This document shows, in pieces, positions 1 to 34,107 of a stretch of DNA of 46,594 nucleotides (position 1 is its first letter; every line of letters begins with the position of its first letter). A program made the translations under genes and the position numbers. The notes under the pieces were generated by a model, which saw nothing but the letters and a program-made list of their open reading frames with translations, was not told the origin of the DNA and searched no databases. Location of the stretch: the NCBI GenBank assembly GCA_902526175.1, contig CABZJY010000011.1:1-46594 (forward strand). The letters run 5' to 3'. This stretch comes from an uncultured Alphaproteobacteria bacterium (GTDB lineage Bacteria > Pseudomonadota > Alphaproteobacteria > Methylaequorales > Methylaequoraceae).

Positions 1-693
1 CTTAACAACTTTCTTTACCCTTTTTTCAGGATAAATATTGTAGTAACAGTGACTGTTAACAGGGCATTTTTCACATAAGGGATTTTTTGGTCTACAAATT
101 AGAGAACCTAAATCCATCAACGCCTGACAATACGAGCCATTGTTTTTCTTTGGTGTAAGATTTTGAGCTACGGTATTTAATTTTTTTTCAAAGGTTTTAT
201 TTGCAGGATTTAATTTCATAGATCTTGATATAATTCTCTTTATATTCCCATCTACAACTGCTTTAGTACTGTCGTACAAAATTGCGGAAATTGATGCAGC
301 TGTATACTTCCCAATTCCTGGTATTTTTATTAATTCTTCATAACTTTTAATAGGGTAATTTTGTTTAATTGCATTAATTGCCTTAAACATATTTTTTGCT
401 CTTTGATAATACCCTAATCCCTGCCAGTTAAACATAATTTCATCTAAAGAAGCTTTAGATAAGGAATTAAATGTAGGCCATTTTCTTAAAAATTTATAGA
501 AATAAGGTATAACTGTCTTAACACCAGTTTGCTGTAGCATGATTTCACTTAACCATACACAATAAAAGTTTTGATATTTTTCTTCTCTCCATGGAAGTTG
601 TCTTTTATGAACTTGGTACCAATTCAAAATTTTATTTTGCCATATATGGCTATTTTTTAAACTTATATTGTCTATTTTATTATTTTTGAGCAT
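1..693 (-). CDS. mutY: A/G-specific adenine DNA glycosylase MutY (3' end beyond window)
   Basis: Base-excision repair enzyme that removes adenine mispaired with 8-oxoguanine. Reading the minus strand from ATG 693-691 gives 231 codons open to the window edge. Visible are SEIMLQQTGV, which carries the catalytic Glu, the helix-hairpin-helix IPGIGKYTAASI, VVDGNIKR with the catalytic Asp, and the iron-sulfur cluster pattern C-x6-C-x2-C-x5-C (CRPKNPLCEKC...C) close to the edge. The C-terminal 8-oxoG-recognition domain lies outside the window. It is divergent from dciA with only 10 bp between the start codons, a common alphaproteobacterial arrangement. Family assignment is secure. Confidence 0.96.
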   Translation of the reverse strand, partial: MLKNNKIDNISLKNSHIWQNKILNWYQVHKRQLPWREEKYQNFYCVWLSEIMLQQTGVKTVIPYFYKFLRKWPTFNSLSKASLDEIMFNWQGLGYYQRAKNMFKAINAIKQNYPIKSYEELIKIPGIGKYTAASISAILYDSTKAVVDGNIKRIISRSMKLNPANKTFEKKLNTVAQNLTPKKNNGSYCQALMDLGSLICRPKNPLCEKCPVNSHCYYNIYPEKRVKKVVK

Positions 694-696
694 AAT
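668..696 (+). promoter_or_regulatory. Predicted leaderless promoter of dciA-smc-atp operon
   Basis: TTGTCT (668-673), a 17-nt spacer and CATAAT (691-696) resemble a sigma70 promoter. The -10 box ends 7 nt before the dciA ATG at 704, so transcription would begin at or next to the start codon. It lies inside the first codons of mutY. No Shine-Dalgarno is visible. The prediction rests on consensus match and spacing only. Confidence 0.45.
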
Positions 697-703
697 ACTT
701 AAA

Positions 704-1018
704 ATGGTAAAGAGAACTAATAAAACAAAGTCTATTTCTTCGATTATACCTAATGTTCTTGGTCCTGTTAAAAAAAAAAGTAATAAAATTTTGGAGATTA
801 AACTTAACTGGAACAAAATATTAAATGATGATCTTTCTAAATTTAGCTTCCCAAATAAAATATACAAATTTAATAACAAAAAAACTCTTGAAATATCTGT
901 AGAAGAAGAAAAGTTATTAGAGATCAGTTATAATTCGGATTTTATAATGAGAGAAATTAATAGATTTTATGGACACGAACATATAGAATTGATTAAGTTT
1001 AAAAAAATATTGTATTAA
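704..1018 (+). CDS. dciA: DUF721 family protein, DciA-like (probable DnaB helicase loader)
   Basis: A 104-residue basic protein of the DUF721/DciA family. DciA proteins help load the replicative helicase DnaB in bacteria lacking DnaC/DnaI. The N-terminal segment SIIPNVLGPVKKKSNKILEIKLNWNKIL has the family's usual spacing before a Trp (LNWNKIL), followed by a KH-like alpha/beta region. The assignment leans strongly on context: mutY-DUF721-dsbA-smc is a conserved alphaproteobacterial order. I start at ATG 704; an in-frame TTG at 668 would run back into mutY and add a non-homologous stretch. Sequence divergence is high, so the function is inferred from family and synteny. Confidence 0.75.
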   Translation: MVKRTNKTKSISSIIPNVLGPVKKKSNKILEIKLNWNKILNDDLSKFSFPNKIYKFNNKKTLEISVEEEKLLEISYNSDFIMREINRFYGHEHIELIKFKKILY

Positions 1019-1034
1019 ATTAAGTAAGGTTCAT

Positions 1035-1640
1035 ATGAATTTAAAATACATTTATTTATTTATTTTTGTTTATAACTTTTTTTATACTGAACTAGTTTCA
1101 GAGAATATTGTTGATACTATCGAAGCTTTAGAGGAAAAATCTCTTGGCGAACCGGACGCTCCAATAAAAATGATTGAGTTTGCTTCACTTACCTGTGGGC
1201 ATTGCGCTAGATTCCACAATGAAGTTATGCCTGCAATTAAAGAAAAATATATAAACAATGGGAAAATATTTTTTATCTACAAAGATTTTCCTTTAGATAA
1301 ATTTGCTTTAAAGGCATCGATTATATCAAGATGCTCAGGTAACAAAAATTATTTCAGTTTTTTAGATGTTTTTTATAAAAAGCAGGCAAGTTGGACTAGG
1401 TCTCAAGATCCATTCAAGTCTTTACTCAAAATTGCTAAAGTAGGGGGACTTAAAGATGAAGAAATTAAAGTGTGTGTTGGAAATAAATCTATCGAAGATG
1501 GATTACTAAAAGATAGACTTAAATCCTCAAAAAAATACGATATAACCGCAACGCCAACAATTTATCTTAATGGTAAAAAATATACTGGAGATTTAACACT
1601 CGAAGCACTTGAACTTAAGATTAATTCTCTACTTAATTAG
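1035..1640 (+). CDS. DsbA-family thiol:disulfide oxidoreductase
   Basis: Periplasmic thioredoxin-fold protein of 201 residues expected to introduce or shuffle disulfides in exported proteins. An N-terminal hydrophobic segment (about residues 5-20) looks like a signal peptide or anchor. The active site is C54-G-H-C57 within FASLTCGHCARFH, and the cis-proline loop is ATPT (P174). The CGHC pair and the DAPIKMIEFAS lead-in match the alphaproteobacterial thioredoxin_4 type DsbA that sits between DUF721 and smc. It lies 16 nt after dciA and 8 nt before smc, so it is probably co-transcribed. The electron-accepting partner (DsbB) is not in the window. Confidence 0.9.
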   Translation: MNLKYIYLFIFVYNFFYTELVSENIVDTIEALEEKSLGEPDAPIKMIEFASLTCGHCARFHNEVMPAIKEKYINNGKIFFIYKDFPLDKFALKASIISRCSGNKNYFSFLDVFYKKQASWTRSQDPFKSLLKIAKVGGLKDEEIKVCVGNKSIEDGLLKDRLKSSKKYDITATPTIYLNGKKYTGDLTLEALELKINSLLN

Positions 1641-1648
1641 TTACTAAA

Positions 1649-4600
1649 TTGTTTAATATAAAAAAATTAAAAATTTCAGGCTTCAAATCTTTTCCCTACC
1701 CATTAGAGATTGATATTCCTGAAGGAATTACTGGTATTATTGGACCAAATGGTTGCGGCAAATCAAATATTTTTGAAGCAATTCGATGGGTGATGGGCGA
1801 AAGTTCATCAAAAAGTTTAAGGTCCTCCTCTATGGAAGAACTAATATTTAGCGGAACAGATAATGTTCCTGAAAAAAATATTGCCGAGGTAACTGTTGAT
1901 CTTGAAATTAATGAAGAAAATAAAAAACAATTTGGTGATGACAAACTCATTGTATCCCGACATCTTGAAAGAGGTGTTGGTTCATTTTACAAAATTAATA
2001 ATAAGGATGTTAGAGCAAAGGATATTAGTATACTTTTTTCAGACTCCGGATCAGGTCCGAGATCAAGTTCTATAATAAGTCAGGGAAATATTGACCAAAT
2101 AATAAATTTTAAACCCCTAGAAAGAAAAATTATTCTTGAGGATGCTGCTGGTATATCTGGTTTACAAACTAGAAGGCATGACTCAGAATTAAAACTAAAT
2201 GCAACAGAAAAAAATTTAGAGAGGATCGGTGATAATATATCAATATTAGAAAAGCAAAAACAATCACTCAAAAGACAATCACGGCAAGCTGAAAATTATC
2301 AAAAAATCTCAGATCAAATAAAATATAACCAAAAAAAATTATTCTACATTCAATGGAAAAACTCAAGTATACAAAAATCTTCATTTCTAAAAAATACCAA
2401 GATTTTTGAAAATAAAATAAAAATTATTGAACAAGAATTAGATAAACTAAGCGCAGCATCCAATGACATTAAAGTTAATTTTGAAAAATGCGAATTAGAG
2501 AAATTAACTTTAGATAAAAAAATGAATAAAATTATTCTTGAAAAAGAAACAGTAGTTAATAAAAAACAAAATTTAGCATTGAGAAGAACCGAGGTACAAA
2601 ATTTTTTACTTTCACTTGAGAATGATCAAACCCGTGAACACAAACGAATTCAGGAAATAAGGAAAAATATTACAGAACTTAATAAATTAATTGTCGACTC
2701 AAATAATTCTGACAATTTAAAAAAAAGTCTTGATTCCGAACTTGCAAATGAAGCAAATCTTAACGAAAAAATATCTAAGCTAGAATCAATTCTTTACTCT
2801 GAGATCCAGCTGACACTTGGTGAAGAATTTAAAAAAGATAATTTTATTGAATCAAATGTAATACTGAATAAAAAAAAAAAAGAAATTGAAAAGGAATTAG
2901 AAAAACTCTCAGTACAAATAAAAATAAAGAAAAATAAAACAAATATCAAAATTCTCAAAGATTTAGAAAATAACATTAATGGTATATCCTTTAAGATTAA
3001 ATTGTTGAAGAATGATAGACTAGAAAATGAAAAAAAACTAAGAATTATTGAAAGAGATATCGAAAAGAGATCAAAAGACCTTGATGTAATTTTCAACAAT
3101 TTAACAAGAAACAAAGCAGAACTTAATACACTTAAGAAATTTGCTCAAGATATAGATAATTCAAAAAGATCCATAATCAATTTGATAAAAATTAAAAATG
3201 GTTATGAAAAAGCAGTTTATACTGTATTAAATTATGACTTAGATGCAGAACTTTCAGAATCAAAAAAATACTGGGTAGAAAAATACAACCATGAATTGCC
3301 AGATCTACCAAAATCAATTGATCGATTATCAAATTATGTAAGTGGACCAAAACAATTGGATCAAATTTTATCCCAAATTGGTGTAGTTAAAAAAAAGATT
3401 GACGGATCTCGTGCCAGTAGAGACTTGAAAGTAGGACAATATATAGTTTCTACTGAAGGATATGTTTGGAGATGGGACGGTTTATTCTCAGAAAAAGAAA
3501 CTGAAATTAGTAAATGGTTTAGTCAAGGCCAAAAAATACGTGAATTAGAAAAGAATATTTTGATTTTAAATAGTAAGATGTCAGAATGTAAAAAGAGTCT
3601 TGATAAAATTAAAATACAAAAAAATGGACTAATAAATAATGATTTAGAGTTATATAAAAATCAGCAAAATTTTCAAAAAAATTTAGATAAAGAAAATATA
3701 AAACTAGCTCAACAAAAAAACAAAGTTTTGGTTGAACAGGCCTTTATAGACAAATTGATTGAAAGACAAAACTTACTTTTAGATCATAAGAAAAAAGTTA
3801 CCGGGGAAATATCTGATATTGAGGATAAACTAAAATTAGGCACATCAAAACCAAGTGAAAAAAATCAGACACAACTAACACTTGATAATCTTAAAGATCA
3901 AATTAAGAAAAAAAGAATATATATTAACCAAATAAACCAAAAAATTTTGAGTATGGAGATAAAGGCAAACCATTATGAAAAAAATTTAGAAGAAAATCTT
4001 AATAGAGAAAAAGAATCAATAAACCAGTTAAATAACTACGAAAAAAGAATTACAAAACTTCGACATGAAAGACAAAACTTAGATGATCAACCTGACAACT
4101 TTGATCAAAAGATTAACTCTATTGTTGCAGAAATTCAAATGTTGCAGAACAAAATTGATAAAAACAACAATCATATTGAACTTAACAATAGCAGACTAAA
4201 TCAAAATAATGAAAAAATTAGAACACTTAACAACGAAAAAAATCAAATAAATAATCAGAAAATTAGACTTGAAGAAAATACTCGTTTCCACAAAGACAAA
4301 CTTACAGAAATTGAGGAAAATATTAGAAAAACTTTCGGAATTCATCCTACTCAAATGGAAAAAGATTTTGATAGTGATAATAAAGATAGTTCTGAATCAA
4401 AGGATTTTAGAGAAGTAGAGAAAGTTATTGAAGATTTAATAAATAAAAGAAACCTAATAGGACCAGTAAATTTAAGGGCTTATATTGAACAAAAAGAAGT
4501 CAGTAAAGAATTAGAGGGCATGATATCTGAGAGAGATGATATAATGCTTGCAATAAAAAAACTAAGAAAAGCTATCACTGAAATTAACCAAGAAGGAAAA

Positions 4601-5083
4601 AGAAGATTATTAAAAGCATTTGATAAAGTAAATGAAAATTTTTCTAAATTATTTAAAAAATTCTTTATTGGAGGAGATGCGCATCTTGAATTAGTTAATT
4701 CTGATGATCCATTACAAACAGGAATCGAAATATATGCTAAACCTCCGGGTAAAAAACTTTCAAGCATCAGTTTGTTATCTGGAGGTGAGAAAACACTTAC
4801 GGCAATATCTCTTATTTTTTCAATATTTCTTATTAAACCATCGCCAATATGCATCCTTGATGAAGTAGACGCAGCTTTAGATGATGAAAATGTTGGAAAA
4901 TTCTGTGAAATTTTGAATGAAATCAAAAATCAAACTAGAACCAAATTTCTTATAGTAACTCACCATAAAATAACAATGTCAATGGTCGATAAGATTTATG
5001 GAGTAACTATGAATCAAAAGGGGATATCAGATGTGGTTTCGGTGAGTTTTGATGACAATAGAGATTATCAAGAAGCAATTTAA
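1649..5083 (+). CDS. smc: Chromosome partition protein SMC
   Basis: Condensin ATPase for chromosome compaction and segregation, 1144 residues, the normal length. Order of parts: Walker A GPNGCGKSN (32-40), first long coiled coil, hinge around 500-630, second coiled coil, ABC signature LSGGEK (1043-1048) and Walker B ICILDEVDAALDD (catalytic E1072). The coils are extremely lysine/asparagine-rich with many A-runs. The start is TTG at 1649, placing MFNIKKLKISGFKSF at the N-terminus as usual; no ATG is near. No scpA/scpB gene is in the window. It sits between a dsbA-like gene and atpI and ends 1 nt before the atpI ATG. Confidence 0.98.
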   Translation: MFNIKKLKISGFKSFPYPLEIDIPEGITGIIGPNGCGKSNIFEAIRWVMGESSSKSLRSSSMEELIFSGTDNVPEKNIAEVTVDLEINEENKKQFGDDKLIVSRHLERGVGSFYKINNKDVRAKDISILFSDSGSGPRSSSIISQGNIDQIINFKPLERKIILEDAAGISGLQTRRHDSELKLNATEKNLERIGDNISILEKQKQSLKRQSRQAENYQKISDQIKYNQKKLFYIQWKNSSIQKSSFLKNTKIFENKIKIIEQELDKLSAASNDIKVNFEKCELEKLTLDKKMNKIILEKETVVNKKQNLALRRTEVQNFLLSLENDQTREHKRIQEIRKNITELNKLIVDSNNSDNLKKSLDSELANEANLNEKISKLESILYSEIQLTLGEEFKKDNFIESNVILNKKKKEIEKELEKLSVQIKIKKNKTNIKILKDLENNINGISFKIKLLKNDRLENEKKLRIIERDIEKRSKDLDVIFNNLTRNKAELNTLKKFAQDIDNSKRSIINLIKIKNGYEKAVYTVLNYDLDAELSESKKYWVEKYNHELPDLPKSIDRLSNYVSGPKQLDQILSQIGVVKKKIDGSRASRDLKVGQYIVSTEGYVWRWDGLFSEKETEISKWFSQGQKIRELEKNILILNSKMSECKKSLDKIKIQKNGLINNDLELYKNQQNFQKNLDKENIKLAQQKNKVLVEQAFIDKLIERQNLLLDHKKKVTGEISDIEDKLKLGTSKPSEKNQTQLTLDNLKDQIKKKRIYINQINQKILSMEIKANHYEKNLEENLNREKESINQLNNYEKRITKLRHERQNLDDQPDNFDQKINSIVAEIQMLQNKIDKNNNHIELNNSRLNQNNEKIRTLNNEKNQINNQKIRLEENTRFHKDKLTEIEENIRKTFGIHPTQMEKDFDSDNKDSSESKDFREVEKVIEDLINKRNLIGPVNLRAYIEQKEVSKELEGMISERDDIMLAIKKLRKAITEINQEGKRRLLKAFDKVNENFSKLFKKFFIGGDAHLELVNSDDPLQTGIEIYAKPPGKKLSSISLLSGGEKTLTAISLIFSIFLIKPSPICILDEVDAALDDENVGKFCEILNEIKNQTRTKFLIVTHHKITMSMVDKIYGVTMNQKGISDVVSVSFDDNRDYQEAI

Positions 5084-5084
5084 A

Positions 5085-5375
5085 ATGAACGATGAAAGAA
5101 AATCATTTCAACAAAGACTTGCTTCTCATAAAAAAAAAACTAATAGCAACAATTTAAACAGTAAAAAAAACTCTAAACAAAATATCAATGCACTTGGGCT
5201 TGGGTTTAAGTTAGCAACAGACTTTGTTGTAACTATTGTTGTGGGTTGTTTGATTGGTCTAGGGATAGATAAGCTATTTGAAACTAAGCCTACTTTTTTT
5301 TTAATTTTTTTGTTTTTAGGTATTGCAGGAGCTTTTCTAAATATATATCGTACTGTATTGAATTTAAATAAATAG
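5085..5375 (+). CDS. atpI: ATP synthase accessory protein AtpI
   Basis: Small membrane protein (96 residues) of the AtpI family that opens F0 operons and assists c-ring assembly or Mg2+ handling. It has a charged N-terminus rich in Lys/Asn (1-35), then two transmembrane helices (about 45-62 and 70-88), with the loop GLGIDKLFETKP between them as in alphaproteobacterial AtpI. The chosen start is ATG 5085, 1 nt after the smc stop; the upstream in-frame ATG at 5049 overlaps smc and adds unrelated residues. It is followed 7 nt later by atpB. Weak sequence conservation is normal for this family, and the context makes the call firm. Confidence 0.88.
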   Translation: MNDERKSFQQRLASHKKKTNSNNLNSKKNSKQNINALGLGFKLATDFVVTIVVGCLIGLGIDKLFETKPTFFLIFLFLGIAGAFLNIYRTVLNLNK

Positions 5376-5382
5376 GTAAATC

Positions 5383-6123
5383 TTGGCAAGCCCTTTAGCA
5401 CAATTTGAAATAAAAGAAATAATTCCAATAGTTGTATCCAATTATAATATTTCCTTAACTAACTCAGCTTTAGCAATGATTTTTACAGCTGCGATTATCT
5501 TGCTTTTTCTTTTTTTAGGATTAAGAAATTTGAATATAGTACCAAGTAAATTACAAGTAGCTGTTGAATTAAGCTATGAATTTATTGCTGGAATGATCAA
5601 AGATAATATTGGTAAAGAGGGACTTAAATATTTGCCCTTTGTGATGACCCTATTCCTTTTTATTCTTATTGGTAATCTTTTCGGAATGTTACCATATAGT
5701 TTTACATGGACTAGTCACATTATAGTGACATTCGCAATTTCTTTTTTCATTTTTTTATCTGTTACATTTATAGCTATTTTTAAACATGGCTTGATAAAAT
5801 TTTTGGGATTCTTTGCACCTGCAGGTGTCCCAAAACTTATGCTATTTTTGTTAATTCCGATTGAAATTATATCATACATATCAAGACCAATAAGTTTATC
5901 AGTGAGATTATTTGCGAATATGATGGCAGGACATACACTTCTCAAAGTAATTGGAGGATTTGTATTTGTTCTAGCTGCTAACTCATTTATTATAGGGGGT
6001 ATTATTCCCTTAGCTTTTTTGATAGCCCTAACAGGGCTTGAAATAGTAATTGCTTTTTTGCAAGCTTATGTATTTGCAATATTAACTTGTTTATACATCA
6101 ATGATGCAATACATTTGCATTAG
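5383..6123 (+). CDS. atpB: ATP synthase F0 subunit a
   Basis: Proton-channel subunit of the F0 motor in the inner membrane, 246 residues. The N-terminus MASPLAQFEIKEI is typical of alphaproteobacterial subunit a. The essential arginine is R175 in SVRLFANMMAGH, and helix 5 carries E220 and Q227 (LTGLEIVIAFLQAY). Several hydrophobic helices are evident. Start codon TTG at 5383; the conserved N-terminus begins exactly there, and no ATG is available upstream after the atpI stop. It is followed by a 36-nt gap and atpE. Confidence 0.97.
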   Translation: MASPLAQFEIKEIIPIVVSNYNISLTNSALAMIFTAAIILLFLFLGLRNLNIVPSKLQVAVELSYEFIAGMIKDNIGKEGLKYLPFVMTLFLFILIGNLFGMLPYSFTWTSHIIVTFAISFFIFLSVTFIAIFKHGLIKFLGFFAPAGVPKLMLFLLIPIEIISYISRPISLSVRLFANMMAGHTLLKVIGGFVFVLAANSFIIGGIIPLAFLIALTGLEIVIAFLQAYVFAILTCLYINDAIHLH

Positions 6124-6145
6124 TTAATTATTTATAACTTTAAAT

Positions 6146-6151
6146 TAGGAG
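6146..6151 (+). promoter_or_regulatory. Strong Shine-Dalgarno of atpE
   Basis: TAGGAG lies 8 nt before the atpE ATG at 6160. Most genes in the window have weak or no Shine-Dalgarno, so this near-consensus site stands out. It fits the need for many c subunits per complex from a polycistronic mRNA. Confidence 0.75.
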
Positions 6152-6159
6152 AATTTTAA

Positions 6160-6387
6160 ATGGATATTGAAGCAGCAAAACTTTTGGGAGCTGGTATTGC
6201 GGTTCTAGGTGTTATAGGTTCGGGTATCGGAATTGGAAATATTTTTGCAGCCTTTATTTCTGCCGTTGGAAGAAATCCGGGTGCTAGAGAACATGTTTTT
6301 ACGATGACAATGTTGGGATTTGCACTAGTTGAAGCTTTAGCATTATTTGCACTAATTATTGCTTTACTACTATTGTTTGTATTTTAG
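6160..6387 (+). CDS. atpE: ATP synthase F0 subunit c
   Basis: Proteolipid that forms the rotating c-ring, 75 residues in two helices. The helix-1 glycine motif GSGIGIG (20-26), the polar loop RNPGAR (38-43) and the ion-binding carboxylate E58 in FALVEALALFA are all visible. Ala follows E58 and there is no Gln/Ser/Thr sodium signature, so a proton-driven enzyme is expected. It has the strongest ribosome-binding site of the F0 genes. The neighbours atpB and atpF' confirm the call. Confidence 0.98.
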   Translation: MDIEAAKLLGAGIAVLGVIGSGIGIGNIFAAFISAVGRNPGAREHVFTMTMLGFALVEALALFALIIALLLLFVF

Positions 6388-6392
6388 TATTT

Positions 6393-6974
6393 ATGAAGTT
6401 AAGAAGAATCAATTTTTTTTTATTCATAATCATTTTTTTAAAACAGCCACTTCTGTTGTTGGCGGCTGATGAAAAAGGAGGTATGCCTCAACTTGATCCA
6501 AGCTCATATTCTTCACAGGTTTTCTGGTTGATAGTTGTGTTTTCCATTTTGTTTGCTCTAGTTAACTACGTTTTTATACCAAAAATTATTAAGGTTAACT
6601 CAGAGCGTAAAAAGATTATAAATGAAAATATTACTACAGCTGAAAAAAATAATAAAATCATAGAAGACTTAAATAATAAGATCGAAGAAAATATTTCGAA
6701 AGCTCAGCTTGAATCTGAAAAAATATTCAAAGTATCATACGAAAAAAATATGCAGTTTTTTAATAATGAGATAAAGGCTCAGATGAAAATTTTCGAAGAT
6801 AAAGAAAAAAAAATATTGGCTGAAATAGCTGCTAAAAAAAATGAAGTAGAAAAAAATCTTGAAAACTATTGTATCACTATATCCGATAATATTTTCAATA
6901 ACATACTAAAGAAAGATGAAAAGATTTCTAAAGAAAATTTTAAAAAATTAAAAGGAAATTTCCATGCCAACTAG
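6393..6974 (+). CDS. atpF': ATP synthase F0 subunit b' (AtpF')
   Basis: Peripheral stalk subunit, 193 residues. A signal-like hydrophobic stretch (about 7-24, ending LLAAD) precedes the GMPQLDPSSY motif, and the true membrane helix follows at 43-62 (VFWLIVVFSILFALVNYVFI). The remainder is a long charged coiled coil. GMPQLD ahead of the helix is typical of alphaproteobacterial b'. It begins 5 nt after atpE and overlaps atpF by 11 nt, implying translational coupling of the b'/b pair. Confidence 0.93.
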   Translation: MKLRRINFFLFIIIFLKQPLLLLAADEKGGMPQLDPSSYSSQVFWLIVVFSILFALVNYVFIPKIIKVNSERKKIINENITTAEKNNKIIEDLNNKIEENISKAQLESEKIFKVSYEKNMQFFNNEIKAQMKIFEDKEKKILAEIAAKKNEVEKNLENYCITISDNIFNNILKKDEKISKENFKKLKGNFHAN

Positions 6975-7449
6975 CATGCTCGAGGATTCAACTTTTTGGG
7001 TTGCATCATCATTTATTATTTTTATTTTGTTAACCTTAAAACCTCTGAAAGAATTTTTTAACACTTCGTTAGAAAACAAAATTGATTTGATTACAAAAGA
7101 AATAGATGAATCATCACAGCTTAAGGATCAATCCATTAAGATTCTTGAAGAGATAAAACAAAAACAAAAAGATTCAGATATTTTAGTAAATAAGATCATT
7201 GAAGATTCAAAAATAAATACAATTGAGTATGAAAAAGATCTGAAACAAAGACTTAAATCCACACTTGAAAAAAGAGAAATAAATTTTCAACAAAGAATAA
7301 ATAACGAAATTTCAAAAGCTGAACAAGATATTAAAGAATTAATTATTGAAACATCTATATATGTTACTCAAAAAAGAATAGAAAAAAATATTCGCACCTC
7401 AGATAATAATAATATTATTTTAAATTCTTTAAAAAAAATAAATTTTTGA
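6964..7449 (+). CDS. atpF: ATP synthase F0 subunit b
   Basis: Second stalk subunit, 161 residues, with one N-terminal membrane helix (about 8-26, FWVASSFIIFILLTL) and a long charged helical tail that would dimerise with b' and reach F1. The start codon lies within the last 11 nt of atpF'. The F1 genes (atpHAGDC) are not in the window, as expected for Alphaproteobacteria, where F0 and F1 are separate operons. Divergence is high, but position, length and topology leave little doubt. Confidence 0.9.
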   Translation: MPTSMLEDSTFWVASSFIIFILLTLKPLKEFFNTSLENKIDLITKEIDESSQLKDQSIKILEEIKQKQKDSDILVNKIIEDSKINTIEYEKDLKQRLKSTLEKREINFQQRINNEISKAEQDIKELIIETSIYVTQKRIEKNIRTSDNNNIILNSLKKINF

Positions 7450-7458
7450 TTATTTCTT

Positions 7459-8397
7459 ATGGCGGTTCATACTGTACTAGAAGAACATGAAATAAAAAAA
7501 ATTTTGAATTTATATGATGTTGGTGAACTAATTGAGTATAAAGGTATTACTGAAGGAATAGAAAATACAAATTACTTTTTAAAGACTAATAAAAAAAAGT
7601 ATATTCTTACAATTTTTGAAAAAAGAGTAAAACAAAGGGATCTACCTTTCTATCTTGATCTTATGGATCATATAAAGTCCAAAGGAATCAATTGTCCAAG
7701 ATCGCTGCTCAGCATACAAAAAAAAAGATTACAATCAATTAAAAAAAAAAAATTAGCAATCTTTACTTTTATAGATGGCAAATGTCTTAAACATTGGAAT
7801 AAAGATATTTGCTACTCAGTGGGTAAAAAACTGGCTAAATTACATCGATTGAGTGCAAATTTTCATAAAGAAAAAAATAATGACTTCAGCATTAATAAAT
7901 GGGTGAAAATATTTGAAAAATTAAAAAAAAAAGTTCACAGTTATTTTCCGGAAACTGATTCAATAATTTCTAAGGAATTAAATTTTCTTAAAGAAAATTG
8001 GTTAAAAAATTTACCAAAAGGTATTATCCATGCAGATTTATTTCCTGATAATATACTTTTTGAAAATAATAAAATTTCTGGAATTATAGATTTTTATTTT
8101 TCATGTACTGATTTTTTTGTTTATGATTTAGCAATAACAATAAATGCTTGGTGTTTTAATAAAAATAAATTTCAACATAGTTTTTTCTCTTCATTAGTAA
8201 ATGGTTATCAGTCTGAAAGAAAATTAACAAACCAAGAAAAAAAAAAATTAAATATTTCCTTACGTGGTGCAGCAATAAGATTTTTATTGACTAGGCTTTT
8301 AGATTTTTATAAAGAAGAAAAAAATTTTTTAAAAAAGGATCCATTAGATTTTTTAAATATTCTTTCTTTTCATATTCGTAATGATTTAAAATGTTAG
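7459..8397 (+). CDS. thrB: Homoserine kinase, type II (APH-fold)
   Basis: Phosphorylates L-homoserine for threonine synthesis; cytosolic. The 312-residue protein has the aminoglycoside-phosphotransferase fold used by alphaproteobacterial ThrB rather than the GHMP fold. The catalytic loop is HADLFPDN (H191, D193, N198) and the metal-binding Asp is in GIIDF (D211); TEGIENTNYF near residue 31 is the nucleotide-loop equivalent. It starts 9 nt after atpF and overlaps rnhA by 7 nt, so it is in the same operon. Its pathway partner thrC is found separately at 11892-13280, at the end of the cytochrome oxidase operon. Confidence 0.92.
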   Translation: MAVHTVLEEHEIKKILNLYDVGELIEYKGITEGIENTNYFLKTNKKKYILTIFEKRVKQRDLPFYLDLMDHIKSKGINCPRSLLSIQKKRLQSIKKKKLAIFTFIDGKCLKHWNKDICYSVGKKLAKLHRLSANFHKEKNNDFSINKWVKIFEKLKKKVHSYFPETDSIISKELNFLKENWLKNLPKGIIHADLFPDNILFENNKISGIIDFYFSCTDFFVYDLAITINAWCFNKNKFQHSFFSSLVNGYQSERKLTNQEKKKLNISLRGAAIRFLLTRLLDFYKEEKNFLKKDPLDFLNILSFHIRNDLKC

Positions 8398-8831
8398 AAA
8401 ATAATACTATTAACATTTACACAGATGGGGCTTGCTTAGGAAATCCCGGCCCTGGTGGATGGGCATATCTATATTATTTAAATGATAAAAAGGTCTTTTC
8501 TTCGGGTAATGAAAACAATACAACTAATAATAGAATGGAATTAACAGCCGCTATAAAATCACTCCAAAATATATCGAATGCACACCACGTCATTTTGCAT
8601 ACGGATAGTAAATATTTAATTAATGGGGCAAAAGAATGGTTAGAAAAGTGGAAGCATAATAATTGGAAAAGTAGTTCAAATCAGAAAGTAAAAAATATTG
8701 ATTTGTGGCAAAAATTGGATAAACTTCTACAATCTCATGATGTTGAATGGACTTGGGTAAAAGGTCATAGCGGAAACAAATTTAATGAAGAGGTCGATGA
8801 AATGGCAAGAAACGAAGCAAACCTTTTATAA
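8391..8831 (+). CDS. rnhA: Ribonuclease HI
   Basis: Degrades the RNA strand of RNA:DNA hybrids (R-loops, primers). All four catalytic carboxylates are present: D12 (IYTDGACLGNPGPGG), E50 (NRMELTAA), D72 (HTDSKYLI) and D136 (VDEMAR), with H126 in VKGHSGN. Length 146 residues is normal. The basic protrusion (KWKHNNWKSS, about 87-96) is retained. thrB-rnhA adjacency is typical of Alphaproteobacteria. The 3' end overlaps the convergent peroxiredoxin gene by 6 bp. Confidence 0.98.
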   Translation: MLENNTINIYTDGACLGNPGPGGWAYLYYLNDKKVFSSGNENNTTNNRMELTAAIKSLQNISNAHHVILHTDSKYLINGAKEWLEKWKHNNWKSSSNQKVKNIDLWQKLDKLLQSHDVEWTWVKGHSGNKFNEEVDEMARNEANLL

Positions 8832-11288: not shown

Positions 11289-11317
11289 TTGATTAATTTG
11301 TTTAAAATTGCCATAAT
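11289..11317 (+). promoter_or_regulatory. Predicted leaderless promoter of yqgE
   Basis: TTGATT (11289-11294), a 17-nt spacer and CATAAT (11312-11317) lie in the dsbD/yqgE gap. The -10 box ends 6 nt before the yqgE ATG (11324), so the expected transcription start coincides with the start codon. No Shine-Dalgarno is present. Confidence 0.45.
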
Positions 11318-11323
11318 TATATA

Positions 11324-11887
11324 ATGAAAAAGAAAAATTATCTTAAAGGAAATATAATTTGTGCATTACCTCAATTAAAGGATCTTTTTTTTACAAAAAG
11401 TTTAATATATTTAACTCACCATAATCATGAAGGTGCAATTGGAATTGTACTTAATTATAAAATCATGAATGTATCTGGAGATGACCTTTTTGAAAAACTA
11501 AATATTGTAAATAAAAATAAAAATAAAAACTTCTCCTTACACATAGGTGGTCCCCTTAGTCAAAATAATGGCTTCATACTTCACTCTAAGGAATATAAAA
11601 AAAAAGATACTATAAAAATTACACAATCAGTAAACCTTACTTGTACTACAAAAATAATAGAGGATATTGCAAAAAATATGGGCCCAAAAAAATATTTTAT
11701 TTCTCTAGGTTATGCAGGTTGGGGACCTGGGCAACTTGAGGAAGAGATTATAAATAATAGCTGGATAAAGATTAAAGAAGAACTTGATCTAATATTTGAT
11801 GTGGAAGCTGAAAAAAAGTGGGATAAAGCTATAAAAATAACTGGAATTGACTTTTCAAAATTTTCCTCTTATTCAGGTAAAGCCTAG
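11324..11887 (+). CDS. yqgE: YqgE/AlgH family protein
   Basis: A 187-residue protein of the YqgE/AlgH (DUF179) family, whose biochemical role is not settled. Conserved features seen: the opening KGNIICALPQL, THHNHEGAIGIVLN, HIGGPL, and the family hallmark SLGYAGWGPGQLEEEI with NNSW after it. It appears to be a monocistronic gene: divergent from the dsbD-like gene and convergent with thrC, with 4 bp between the two stop codons. The head has no Shine-Dalgarno and may be leaderless. Confidence 0.93.
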   Translation: MKKKNYLKGNIICALPQLKDLFFTKSLIYLTHHNHEGAIGIVLNYKIMNVSGDDLFEKLNIVNKNKNKNFSLHIGGPLSQNNGFILHSKEYKKKDTIKITQSVNLTCTTKIIEDIAKNMGPKKYFISLGYAGWGPGQLEEEIINNSWIKIKEELDLIFDVEAEKKWDKAIKITGIDFSKFSSYSGKA

Positions 11888-30673: not shown

Positions 30674-31466
30674 AAGTCTCTGGATCTACAGGAACATTTT
30701 TTAAATAAATTCCCCAATGAAGATGCGGGCCAGTGGCTCTTCCCGTCATTCCAACACTACCTACTAAATCACCTTTACTAACTAATTGATTTTCAGAAAT
30801 AAAAATTTTTTCAAGATGAGCAAAGATCGAAATTAACCCTAAGCCGTGATCAATAATTACAGTGTTTCCTGTAAAAAACATATTATCAAATATTTTTTTT
30901 ATTTTACCATCAGTTGGAGCATAAATCTTCGTCCCTTTTTTAGCAGCAATATCTAATCCATAATGGGGTCGTTTTGCCTTTCCATTAAGTATTCTTTGAC
31001 TTCCAAATCTTCCTGAGACCCTTCCTTCTACTGGAATGAGAAATTGATCAGAAAATAATTTATTATTTATATCTAAGTTTTTAACTTTTTTTAATTCATC
31101 ACTTTCCTTCAGAATTTTTTTCATATCCTTTTGACTAGGCTCAACTTTTCTTGTGGGTAAATTATTAATTTTTTCTATTTTATATTTTTTTTTTTTTACC
31201 TTAAATATTTTCTCCTCTTCACCTATTTTTATCTTAATAATCTCATCATGCTTCCTCCCAAAGGCATACACAAAATAGTTATCACTTGATAGCTTTATCT
31301 TTAAATCATTAATTTTAACTTGCTCACCGTTATTAACAATTCCATATATCATCCCGCCTTCACAGAAACATCCTAAAATATCGAAATTAAAGTTATTGCT
31401 ATTTGATAATTTTGGTAAAATAATAATAAATTGCAGAATCAAAAAATTAATTAATTTTTTTTGCAT
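30648..31466 (-). CDS. M23 (lysostaphin-like) metallopeptidase, exported
   Basis: Predicted periplasmic peptidoglycan endopeptidase or its regulator, 272 residues. N-terminal signal (1-22), a beta-rich middle region with a C33-x-C35 pair (LGCFCEGG), and a C-terminal M23 domain with all zinc and catalytic residues: H168 and D172 (HYGLDIAA), H217 (IFAHLEK), H248 and H250 (GPHLHWG). The intact site suggests a true enzyme. It overlaps xseA by 20 nt, so it is co-translated with it; alphaproteobacterial xseA is often next to such a peptidase. Confidence 0.92.
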   Translation of the reverse strand: MQKKLINFLILQFIIILPKLSNSNNFNFDILGCFCEGGMIYGIVNNGEQVKINDLKIKLSSDNYFVYAFGRKHDEIIKIKIGEEEKIFKVKKKKYKIEKINNLPTRKVEPSQKDMKKILKESDELKKVKNLDINNKLFSDQFLIPVEGRVSGRFGSQRILNGKAKRPHYGLDIAAKKGTKIYAPTDGKIKKIFDNMFFTGNTVIIDHGLGLISIFAHLEKIFISENQLVSKGDLVGSVGMTGRATGPHLHWGIYLKNVPVDPETFIDLNVLE

Positions 31467-32787
31467 CTATTTTTCCATCATAAAATTCTATTTTAAATTC
31501 CTCTAGTTTTTTTATTTCTTCGGATTTAGTTATTACTTTGGTTTTTTGCCAAATTACTGTGTATCCTCTAGCTAATATTCTTTTATAAGATAACGAATCT
31601 AAAAGTTTTTTTTTTTCTGAAATATTAGCTTTTTTCTCTAAAAGAATTTTTTTAGTTTCTTTTTTAATATTACTAAATGTATTCTCAATATTAAGTCTAA
31701 AAATTTTGATTTTTTGAAACATTGACTCAATTTTAAACTCCTGGCCTAATTTTTTAATAAGCAACTTTTTTTTAATTAAGTTCTCTTTTATACTACTTTC
31801 TAGCTTTACCTCAGTAAGATCTAATTTTTGGAAATTATATTGTATAGAGTTTTCGAGATTTGGTAGTCTACCTACTTTTTCAGATAGCTTGATTTTTAGT
31901 TGATCAATCAAACCAGAAACAAGACTCTCAAAATAATTATTTTTTTCTTGAAATTTCTTATAAAGTTCACTTCTTACAGGAACTGCCATTTCAGCAGCAG
32001 CAGTTGGTGTTGGTGCTCTTAGATCTGCAGCAAAGTCACAAAGAGTAACATCAGATTCATGCCCGATAGCAGAAATAATTGGGATTTCAGATGCATAAAT
32101 TGCTTTTACCAAGGGTTCTTCATTAAATGGCATTAAATCCTCAAGATCGCCTCCCCCTCTAGCAATAATAATTAAATCAACTATCTTAGAAATATTTTTA
32201 TTTTTCTTCCAAAGATTAAATTCCTTTATACTTTCAATAATCTCATTTAATGCTAAACGTCCTTGAACATGAACAGGATACAAAATTATTTCTATTGGGA
32301 ATCTTTCTTTTATCCTATGTATTATATCTTTAATTACTGCTCCTGTTGGTGAAGTAATTACTCCTATTCTTCTGGAATAAAGTGGTATTTTTTTTTTCTT
32401 GTTTTCATCAAAATAACCTTCTTTTGAAAGTTTTTTTTTCCTTTCATCTAAAATTCTGAGTAATTCGCCCTCTCCTTCAAGTTCTATATTTTCTACTACA
32501 ATTTGGTATTTTGATTGGGGTGAATAAGTCGTTATTTTTCCTGATACAAAAACCTTTTTACCTTCAACTGGAAAAAAACTTAACCTAGGAACTTTTGTTT
32601 TCCAACAGACAACTGAAATCGTTTCGAATTGATCTTTTAAAGTTAAGTATACATGCCCTGATGAATGCGTTTTAAGTTGGGATATTTCACCGAGAACCCT
32701 TACTCTTGATATTGATTTCTCAAGAATTTTTTTTATTGAATTATTTAATTCAGAGACAGAAAGATGTTTGTTTGGGATATAAGTCAT
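31447..32787 (-). CDS. xseA: Exodeoxyribonuclease VII large subunit
   Basis: Single-strand-specific exonuclease subunit, 446 residues. N-terminal OB-fold (SRVRVLGEISQLKTHSSGHVYLTLKD), then the catalytic domain with GVITSPTGAVIKDI, IARGGGDLEDLMPFN and SAIGHESDVTLCDFAADLRAPTPTAAAE, then a coiled-coil tail and a short C-terminal segment. xseB is not in the window. The head has no Shine-Dalgarno and a -10 box 6 nt from the ATG. Confidence 0.97.
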   Translation of the reverse strand: MTYIPNKHLSVSELNNSIKKILEKSISRVRVLGEISQLKTHSSGHVYLTLKDQFETISVVCWKTKVPRLSFFPVEGKKVFVSGKITTYSPQSKYQIVVENIELEGEGELLRILDERKKKLSKEGYFDENKKKKIPLYSRRIGVITSPTGAVIKDIIHRIKERFPIEIILYPVHVQGRLALNEIIESIKEFNLWKKNKNISKIVDLIIIARGGGDLEDLMPFNEEPLVKAIYASEIPIISAIGHESDVTLCDFAADLRAPTPTAAAEMAVPVRSELYKKFQEKNNYFESLVSGLIDQLKIKLSEKVGRLPNLENSIQYNFQKLDLTEVKLESSIKENLIKKKLLIKKLGQEFKIESMFQKIKIFRLNIENTFSNIKKETKKILLEKKANISEKKKLLDSLSYKRILARGYTVIWQKTKVITKSEEIKKLEEFKIEFYDGKIDAKKIN

Positions 32788-32793
32788 GCAATA

Positions 32794-32822
32794 CTTATAT
32801 CAATATTAATATTTAGTTACAA
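32794..32822 (-). promoter_or_regulatory. Predicted leaderless promoter of xseA
   Basis: On the minus strand TTGTAA (32822-32817), a 17-nt spacer and TATAAG (32799-32794) end 6 nt before the xseA ATG at 32787. The expected start site coincides with the start codon. The box arrangement matches those at dciA, yqgE and rsmE. Confidence 0.45.
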
Positions 32823-32838
32823 AAAAAAAGGATTAATT

Positions 32839-34107
32839 TTGAATATACTCGTTTTAGGTTCAGGTGCTAGAGAACATGCAATTTGTTGGGGAATAAAAAA
32901 ATCTCCTAAATGCAAAAAAATATTTTGTATTCCTGGTAATTCAGGAATAAGCAAAATTGCAAAATGCGTTGATCTTAATCCCCAAAAAAAAAATACTATA
33001 TATAAATTTTGTAAAATAAATAAAATAGATCTTGTAGTAGTTGGACCTGAGAATTTACTTGAAATCGGTATTAGTGATTATTTAAAAAAAAAATTTATTC
33101 CAGTTTTTGGTCCAGAAAAAAGAGCATCCAGATTAGAAACCTCAAAATTATATGCAAAGAAATTTCTTAAAAGAAATAATATTCCTACAGGTGACTATTC
33201 CGAATTTTCAAAAATTAAAGAATCTATAAAATGTATTAGTAACAGAGAACCACCGTATGTAATTAAAGTGGATGGTCTTGCTTCAGGCAAAGGAGTGATG
33301 ATTTGTAGAGATATAAATTCTGCAAAAAAAGTTCTAGAAGATATTTTTGTGAAGAAAAAATTTGGAGAAGCTGGTAAAAAGATTATTATTGAAGAATTTT
33401 TAGAAGGCTTTGAGATGAGTTTTTTTACTTTTCTAGATGAAAGTGGTTCACTTGATCTTGGGTATGCTTTAGATCACAAAAAGCTTTTTAATAACGATAA
33501 GGGGCCAAATACTGGAGGAATGGGTGCATTTGCACCCTCTAAACTTGTAAGCAAAGAATTACTAAAAAAAATTAAACACCAAATTATTGTCCCCACTATT
33601 AATAGTTTAAAAAAAGAGAGAATAGTGTATAGAGGTATTATCTTTTTTGGGTTAATTATCACTAAGAGTGGTCCTAAAGTTATAGAGTATAATGCAAGAT
33701 TTGGTGACCCTGAATGTCAAACTCTTATACAAAGACTTGATTCAGATTTATTGGAGATTTTGCATGCAACTGCTAATGATAAGGTTAAAAACTGTAAAAT
33801 AAAATTATCTCAAGATTATTCAATTTGTGTTGTATTATCATCAAAAGGATATCCTGGGAAATTTGGTATTAATAAATTAATTCCTAATTTAGAAAAACTA
33901 AAGGATACAAAGAATATAAATATCTTTCATGCAGCCACTACTAAAAAAAATGAAAAGTACTTTTCAAATGGAGGAAGAGTTCTTTCAATTACTTCTAGAC
34001 ATAAAAACTATAAGAAAGCTAGACAAAATGCTTATAATTATTTAAAGAAAATCAATTGGAAATATGGTCATTATAGAGATGATATAGGAGAAAAGAATAT
34101 TAAATAA
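32839..34107 (+). CDS. purD: Phosphoribosylamine-glycine ligase
   Basis: Second step of purine synthesis (GAR synthetase), an ATP-grasp enzyme of 422 residues. Motifs: MNILVLGSGAREHAICW, PYVIKVDGLASGKGV, GPNTGGMGAF, NARFGDPECQ. The start is TTG 32839, which gives the canonical N-terminus and has AAAGGA 7 nt upstream. A longer frame from ATG 32764 adds 25 hydrophobic residues and overlaps the divergent xseA, so I reject it. The stop lies 1 bp from the convergent tadA stop. Confidence 0.96.
   Translation: MNILVLGSGAREHAICWGIKKSPKCKKIFCIPGNSGISKIAKCVDLNPQKKNTIYKFCKINKIDLVVVGPENLLEIGISDYLKKKFIPVFGPEKRASRLETSKLYAKKFLKRNNIPTGDYSEFSKIKESIKCISNREPPYVIKVDGLASGKGVMICRDINSAKKVLEDIFVKKKFGEAGKKIIIEEFLEGFEMSFFTFLDESGSLDLGYALDHKKLFNNDKGPNTGGMGAFAPSKLVSKELLKKIKHQIIVPTINSLKKERIVYRGIIFFGLIITKSGPKVIEYNARFGDPECQTLIQRLDSDLLEILHATANDKVKNCKIKLSQDYSICVVLSSKGYPGKFGINKLIPNLEKLKDTKNINIFHAATTKKNEKYFSNGGRVLSITSRHKNYKKARQNAYNYLKKINWKYGHYRDDIGEKNIK

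Follow-up and report, generated by a model that had tools for sequence, protein, structure and literature searches.

Promoter-like elements within the first codons of mutY suggest a very short or missing leader for the dciA-smc-atp run in a family of Alphaproteobacteria

Background

Leaderless mRNAs and the gene neighbourhood of dciA have both been described in Alphaproteobacteria. For Caulobacter crescentus, 375 leaderless mRNAs were reported, corresponding to 9.6% of coding sequences, and 75.4% of starts were given as lacking a Shine-Dalgarno sequence (PMC4117421); for Sinorhizobium meliloti, the number of reported leaderless start sites was 171 (PMC3616915). The location of dciA between mutY and trx-smc in Alphaproteobacteria has also been reported (PMC5109545). 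Finally, bidirectional promoters of Escherichia coli were described as pseudo-symmetric, overlapping -10 elements with starts about 18 bp apart (PMC12825309). Gene order and alphaproteobacterial leaderless mRNAs are already known, and the mechanism considered below is of a known kind. Among the literature matches listed, no start-site map with leaderless mRNAs was present for Pelagibacter, nor did a limited search list a start-site map for a lineage like the present one.

The stretch of DNA analysed here, referred to as the window, covers 46,594 nucleotides of a genome with a G+C content of about 29%. Its dciA gene is preceded by promoter-like elements which, like those of the leaderless mRNAs of Caulobacter and S. 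meliloti, predict a start at or beside the A of the ATG, would make a Shine-Dalgarno sequence unnecessary and would belong to a minority class. Unlike the cases presented in these two reports, the present one is deduced from sequence, and its promoter core would lie in the codons of a divergent neighbour. The window shares with the published mutY|dciA-trx-smc locus a dciA gene that lies beside a divergent mutY and upstream of a thioredoxin-fold gene and smc; compared with that locus as described, the window's family has start codons that overlap or almost touch, with atpI, atpB and two atpF-like genes downstream of smc (seen in five relatives whose fetched stretch reaches them). As in the E. 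coli bidirectional promoters, two divergent promoters may share one DNA region, but with a candidate mutY start located within dciA the transcripts would overlap, unlike in the arrangement given in that report. If these readings are right, a DNA-repair gene would hold the control of the head of a run with a helicase-loader gene, smc and ATP-synthase F0 genes, and a family of small AT-rich genomes would start some of its heads leaderless.

Results

Organization of the dciA run

The window had been described as carrying an operon headed by dciA, and the genes from dciA to the second atpF-like gene do share one strand, as follows.

1..693, minus strand: mutY, 5' part (the gene runs off the left end of the window), ATG at 693-691, Pfam HhH-GPD (MutY type)
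704..1018, plus strand: dciA (PF05258), identified from a Pfam score of 24.0 bits (exactly the cut-off), the family alignment and gene order
1035..1640, plus strand: dsbA-like thioredoxin-fold gene, Pfam DsbA-like thioredoxin
1649..5083, plus strand: smc, Pfam SMC, TTG start
frame 5049-5375, plus strand: atpI, Pfam AtpI
5383-6123, plus strand: atpB, Pfam AtpB
6160-6387, plus strand: atpE, named by reading, between atpB and the first atpF-like gene
6393-6974 and 6964-7449, plus strand: two atpF-like genes, Pfam

The atpF-like genes are followed by those of an APH-fold kinase and of RNase H (Pfam). Gene mutY adjoins dciA in all 23 family loci, and the dsbA-like gene and smc were found downstream of dciA in seven of seven sampled genomes, the window's included. 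Six further genera were sampled for the order dciA, dsbA-like gene, smc, atpI, atpB, two atpF-like genes, kinase, rnhA and algH (704-8831 and 11324-11887 in the window), and five of them keep it; the stretch fetched from the remaining one (G013) stops within smc. The apparent TTG start of smc (window 1649) lies 8 nt past the end of the dsbA-like gene.

Promoter-like elements in front of dciA

Two pairs of boxes had to be considered upstream of dciA.

668..673, plus strand: TTGTCT, candidate -35 of a leaderless start, coinciding with mutY codons on the opposite strand
691..696, plus strand: CATAAT, candidate -10, with 7 nt from its end to the dciA ATG
656..661, plus strand: TTTAAA, -35-like partner of the rival -10
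678..683, plus strand: TATTAT, rival -10, with 20 nt to the dciA ATG; the leader would be of about 14 nt

The start codon of dciA is the ATG at 704-706, and 17 nt separate TTGTCT from CATAAT; box coordinates, spacer, 7-nt gap and start codon are all as given in the preliminary description. CATAAT is composed of the mutY start codon (CAT on the plus strand, 691-693) and of AAT, the first three bases of the 10-nt intergenic gap. With 8.1 bits, TTGTCT-17-CATAAT was the top site at gaps of 0-30 nt before dciA in the window, as it was in G001, the second genome of the window's genus. These bit scores were based on fixed E. coli sigma-70 frequencies, a consensus that the real elements may not resemble; a de novo two-block motif search, which yielded T-rich -10 models, was set aside in their favour. 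Leaderless heads are expected to carry a -10 box that ends some 6 nt ahead of the start codon, and the dciA head does so, the gap being 7 nt in the window and 6 nt in G001. TATTAT scored 4.7 bits in the window and its counterpart in G001, a perfect TATAAT (6/6) at gap 19, scored 7.8 bits. Within 150 nt of the window's dciA, one other site reached at least 7 bits, at gap 40.

The significance of the box pair was estimated in several ways. Between positions 600 and 9300, both strands together contained 55 promoter matches at 9 or more of 12 positions, as against 52.3 (sd 7.5) in shuffled sequences. Over a sampled 779 kb of the genome, pairs with at least 5/6 and at least 4/6 matches at gap 5-9 were present in front of 8 of 194 divergent heads and 7 of 303 starts inside operons, compared with 201 of 24,985 ATGs taken without distinction; from these counts, the dciA pair stands above a random ATG but is unremarkable on its own. 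When the sequence was shuffled with the mutY protein and start codon preserved, 17.5% of draws scored as high as the window.

The absence of a Shine-Dalgarno sequence, also part of the preliminary description, was confirmed: neither AGGA nor GGAG nor GAGG occurs in the 20 nt upstream of dciA, and none precedes dciA in any of the 23 family loci. At -17 to -4, these motifs were found before 15 of 194 divergent heads (two control intervals of equal length gave 6 and 2 of 194) and before 45 of 303 internal starts (19 and 19 in the control intervals). Since only 15/194 divergent heads carry such a motif, its absence from dciA has little weight. The CCTCC of the 16S rRNA tail is intact.

Comparison of the mutY/dciA gap within the family

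The family comprised 32 genomes, of which the 23 with a dciA match were used and the 9 without one were left out. Some dciA starts were chosen by hand: the downstream ATG was taken in G022, and in G010 and G017 (genus g10) the second ATG served for the window score and the extended -10 test and the first ATG for the start spacing and two-box counts. The start codons of mutY and dciA were -2 to +22 nt apart at all 23 loci and overlapped by two bases at nine. Because of this spacing, any promoter lying close to the dciA start necessarily overlaps mutY at all of these loci, which supports the earlier placement of the promoter inside the first mutY codons. The dciA promoter is probably buried in mutY.

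Conservation of both boxes, which had been named as one test of the proposal, did not extend beyond one genus: TTGTCT-17-CATAAT was present at 2 of 23 loci, those of G000 and G001, both from genus g1, and is unchanged between the window and G001. At 15 of the 23 loci, no two-box site of at least 7 bits was found within 150 nt of dciA.

A more widespread element was an extended -10 (TGnTAnnnT-like) at gap 0-30, present at 21/23 loci (8/9 genera) versus 13.4 expected from synonymous codon shuffles holding the mutY protein constant, a comparison to be read with the knowledge that the pattern was formulated post hoc, after viewing the alignment, and that the loci are related by descent. Its gap to dciA is exactly 6 nt at all 13 loci of g7, g10 and g12 and 8-27 nt at eight others, with gaps of 8 in g6, 11 (and 20) in g4, 23 in g8, 26 in g9 and 27 (and 17) in g3. 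At the 13 gap-6 loci, the mutY protein alone makes an extended -10 likely (null 0.79-0.86); the surprise in this test comes from g3, g8 and g9 (null 0.07-0.27). The window's own genus has no extended -10 at gap 0-30. By eye, several of these boxes use the same mutY codons (Y-x-I), which correspond to TATTAT 678-683 in the window and to TATAAT in G001, therefore leaving two readings of the window's head, in which either CATAAT gives a leaderless start or TATTAT gives a leader of about 14 nt. Synonymous change at the mutY N-terminus was mildly low, 27 of 325 alignment windows being as low or lower in g7 and 24 of 325 in all 23 loci.

A conserved leaderless-type head at algH

A further head of the window served as positive control for the leaderless geometry.

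11324..11887, plus strand: algH/yqgE (PF02622)
11289..11317, plus strand: algH promoter TTGATT-17-CATAAT, with TGC directly before the -10 hexamer and 6 nt to the ATG

In 26 of 26 full-length orthologues from 10 genera, [C/A]ATAAT ends exactly 6 nt before the ATG and is directly preceded by TG plus one base. A TTGA[A/T][A/T] -35 box lies 17 nt upstream of the hexamer at 23 loci and 16 nt upstream at three. These counts leave out partial hits (G031, G028), second copies (G012, G003) and further weak hits that lacked a locus (G027, G014), and the algH start of G002 was re-anchored by hand to the second ATG. Outside the family this geometry was not found: of the 28 class loci fetched, 6 had a box matching 4/6 or better at gap 5-8 of any candidate start. 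The literature matches listed held nothing relevant on a leaderless algH. Judged on its sequence conservation, the algH head is a convincing conserved leaderless-type promoter and the firmest result of this analysis, outside the coordinates of the earlier proposal; leaderless translation could be tested cleanly on this conserved head.

Recurrence and distance preferences among heads

According to the preliminary description, the dciA geometry recurs at three other heads of the window, which were not named. With at least 5/6 and at least 4/6 box matches at gap 5-9 as the standard, this holds for algH; no other non-internal head called in the window reached it. Weaker sites precede the heads at 32787 (6.8 bits), 18941 (5.1) and 22705 (4.8), none of which showed a conserved box at leaderless distance when inspected by eye in up to five relatives. 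Likewise, of the 30 divergent heads in the window's genome for which three or more orthologous starts existed, algH alone had sites reaching 5.5 bits in at least three genomes; 22 had no genome at this level, five had one and two had two.

The distribution of two-box sites over 12 distance bins was then examined in seven family genomes, where 508 divergent heads were compared with 874 internal starts on uncurated gene calls (a script took ORFs of 80 codons or more from their first ATG). As mutY runs off the contig, neither it nor dciA of the window itself enters these counts, but copies from relatives can be included. Two distances before divergent heads stood out among the 12 bins. Sites of at least 7 bits at gap 5-8 were found at 19/508 divergent heads versus 9/874 internal starts (P=0.0007), and at gap 21-24 at 15/508 versus 5/874 (P=0.0005). 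With a threshold of 8 bits, the figures were 7/508 versus 5/874 (P=0.11) and 6 versus 1 (P=0.012), respectively. Six of the 19 cases at gap 5-8 were algH, and without them 13/502 versus 9/874 remained (P=0.025), which is not significant given 12 bins.

Single-box signals were less consistent. TAnnnT was in excess at exactly gap 6 in G000 (26 vs 14.1) and G014 (17 vs 7.2), an excess not repeated in the five other genomes pooled (15 vs 14.2), and neither TAnnnT nor core hexamers at gap 5-8 showed reproducible enrichment when five further genomes were considered. Relative to internal genes, TATTAT was enriched upstream of divergent heads 4.4-fold in the window's genome and 4.7-fold in G014, and CATAAT 3.5-fold and 2.1-fold. 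A genome-wide leaderless habit was rejected as a strong claim, the single-box signals being irreproducible and the two-box excess modest. From the distance counts, leaderless heads look like a small minority in this family, and short leaders look at least as common.

Discussion

How the dciA run may be started

We incline to the view that the dciA run is driven by a sigma-70-type promoter core located in the first codons of mutY. From this core, RNA polymerase would start 0-20 nt before the dciA ATG, so that the leader of the message would be absent or very short and translation would begin without a Shine-Dalgarno sequence; the same promoter alone may feed smc and the F0 genes. Box function, the exact start and the mode of translation are what we infer here, beside the observed box positions and distribution, start spacing, gene order and algH precedent. 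TTGTCT-17-CATAAT would place the start at 703 or 704, with a leader of one base or none, and TATTAT 678-683 is the next candidate, with a start near 690.

Leaderlessness of dciA is plausible but unproven, and the strict form of it, with a start at 703/704 from TTGTCT-17-CATAAT, is given somewhat less than an even chance. Besides scoring highest at gap 0-30 in the two g1 genomes, this pair has the same -10 hexamer as algH in the window's genome, at nearly the same spacing, and 13 of 23 relatives carry an extended -10 at gap 6. On the other hand, the pair is restricted to one genus, its gap to the ATG changes from 7 nt in the window to 6 nt in G001, and half of its -10 box is dictated by the mutY start codon.

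A start near 690 from TTTAAA-16-TATTAT (656-683), producing a leader of about 14 nt, again devoid of a Shine-Dalgarno sequence, appears rather doubtful to us. TATTAT is the hexamer with the higher enrichment at divergent heads (4.4x and 4.7x, versus 3.5x and 2.1x for CATAAT), G001 has a 6/6 TATAAT at the corresponding place, the mutY codons involved match, by eye, those of the box in other genera, and its gap of 20 adjoins the preferred gap of 21-24. The bin of gap 17-20 itself is nevertheless without excess (5/508 vs 4/874), no TG precedes TATTAT, and its score in the window is 4.7 bits versus 8.1 for CATAAT. A promoter deeper in mutY, or boxes that are AT-rich chance matches while the true elements differ from the sigma-70 consensus used, would agree with the chance-level number of 9-of-12 matches in the region and with the 15/23 loci devoid of a two-box site of at least 7 bits within 150 nt of dciA, but is unlikely in view of the extended -10 at 21/23 loci and of the single other site of at least 7 bits, at gap 40, within 150 nt of the window's dciA.

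A candidate mutY promoter within dciA

Around the intergenic gap, the window's strongest site faces the opposite direction.

743..771, minus strand: TTAACA-17-TATAAT, candidate mutY promoter within dciA codons, 11/12 match, 49 nt before the mutY ATG

It is the sole mutY site of at least 7 bits within 150 nt in the window (gap 49, inside dciA), and an identical pair is present in G001. In g6, g7, g10 and g12, a TTGAAA-like box combined with TATAAT or TATATT, with a spacer of 16 or 18 nt, was found in dciA 5-14 nt before the mutY start at 15 of 15 loci. No site of at least 7 bits was found for mutY in g3, g8 and g9, and g4 had only a distant one (gap 98). Altogether, 17 of 23 loci have a site of at least 7 bits within 60 nt of the mutY start. 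Shuffles preserving the DciA protein reached the scores of these 17 loci in 6-38% of draws, and the mutY promoter is for this reason considered a lead only.

If the mutY site is real, the two transcripts would overlap over both start codons and joint occupancy of the promoters would hardly be possible. By extension, the mutY and dciA promoters might stand face to face, each in the opening codons of the other gene, with both N-termini shaped by promoter function and with expression of mutY and of the dciA run mutually exclusive, because only one polymerase could be accommodated at a time and the transcripts would be antisense to each other across the start codons. This arrangement as a whole seems to us quite improbable. 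A symmetric shared -10 with starts 18 bp apart was not noticed at mutY/dciA on inspection by eye.

Among the best 80 loci of a named genome collection, mutY identity was at most 46%, and a viral scan returned 10 mutY-like loci. Elsewhere in the window, xseA and purD (31447-34107) are divergent and their called starts overlap by 24 nt.
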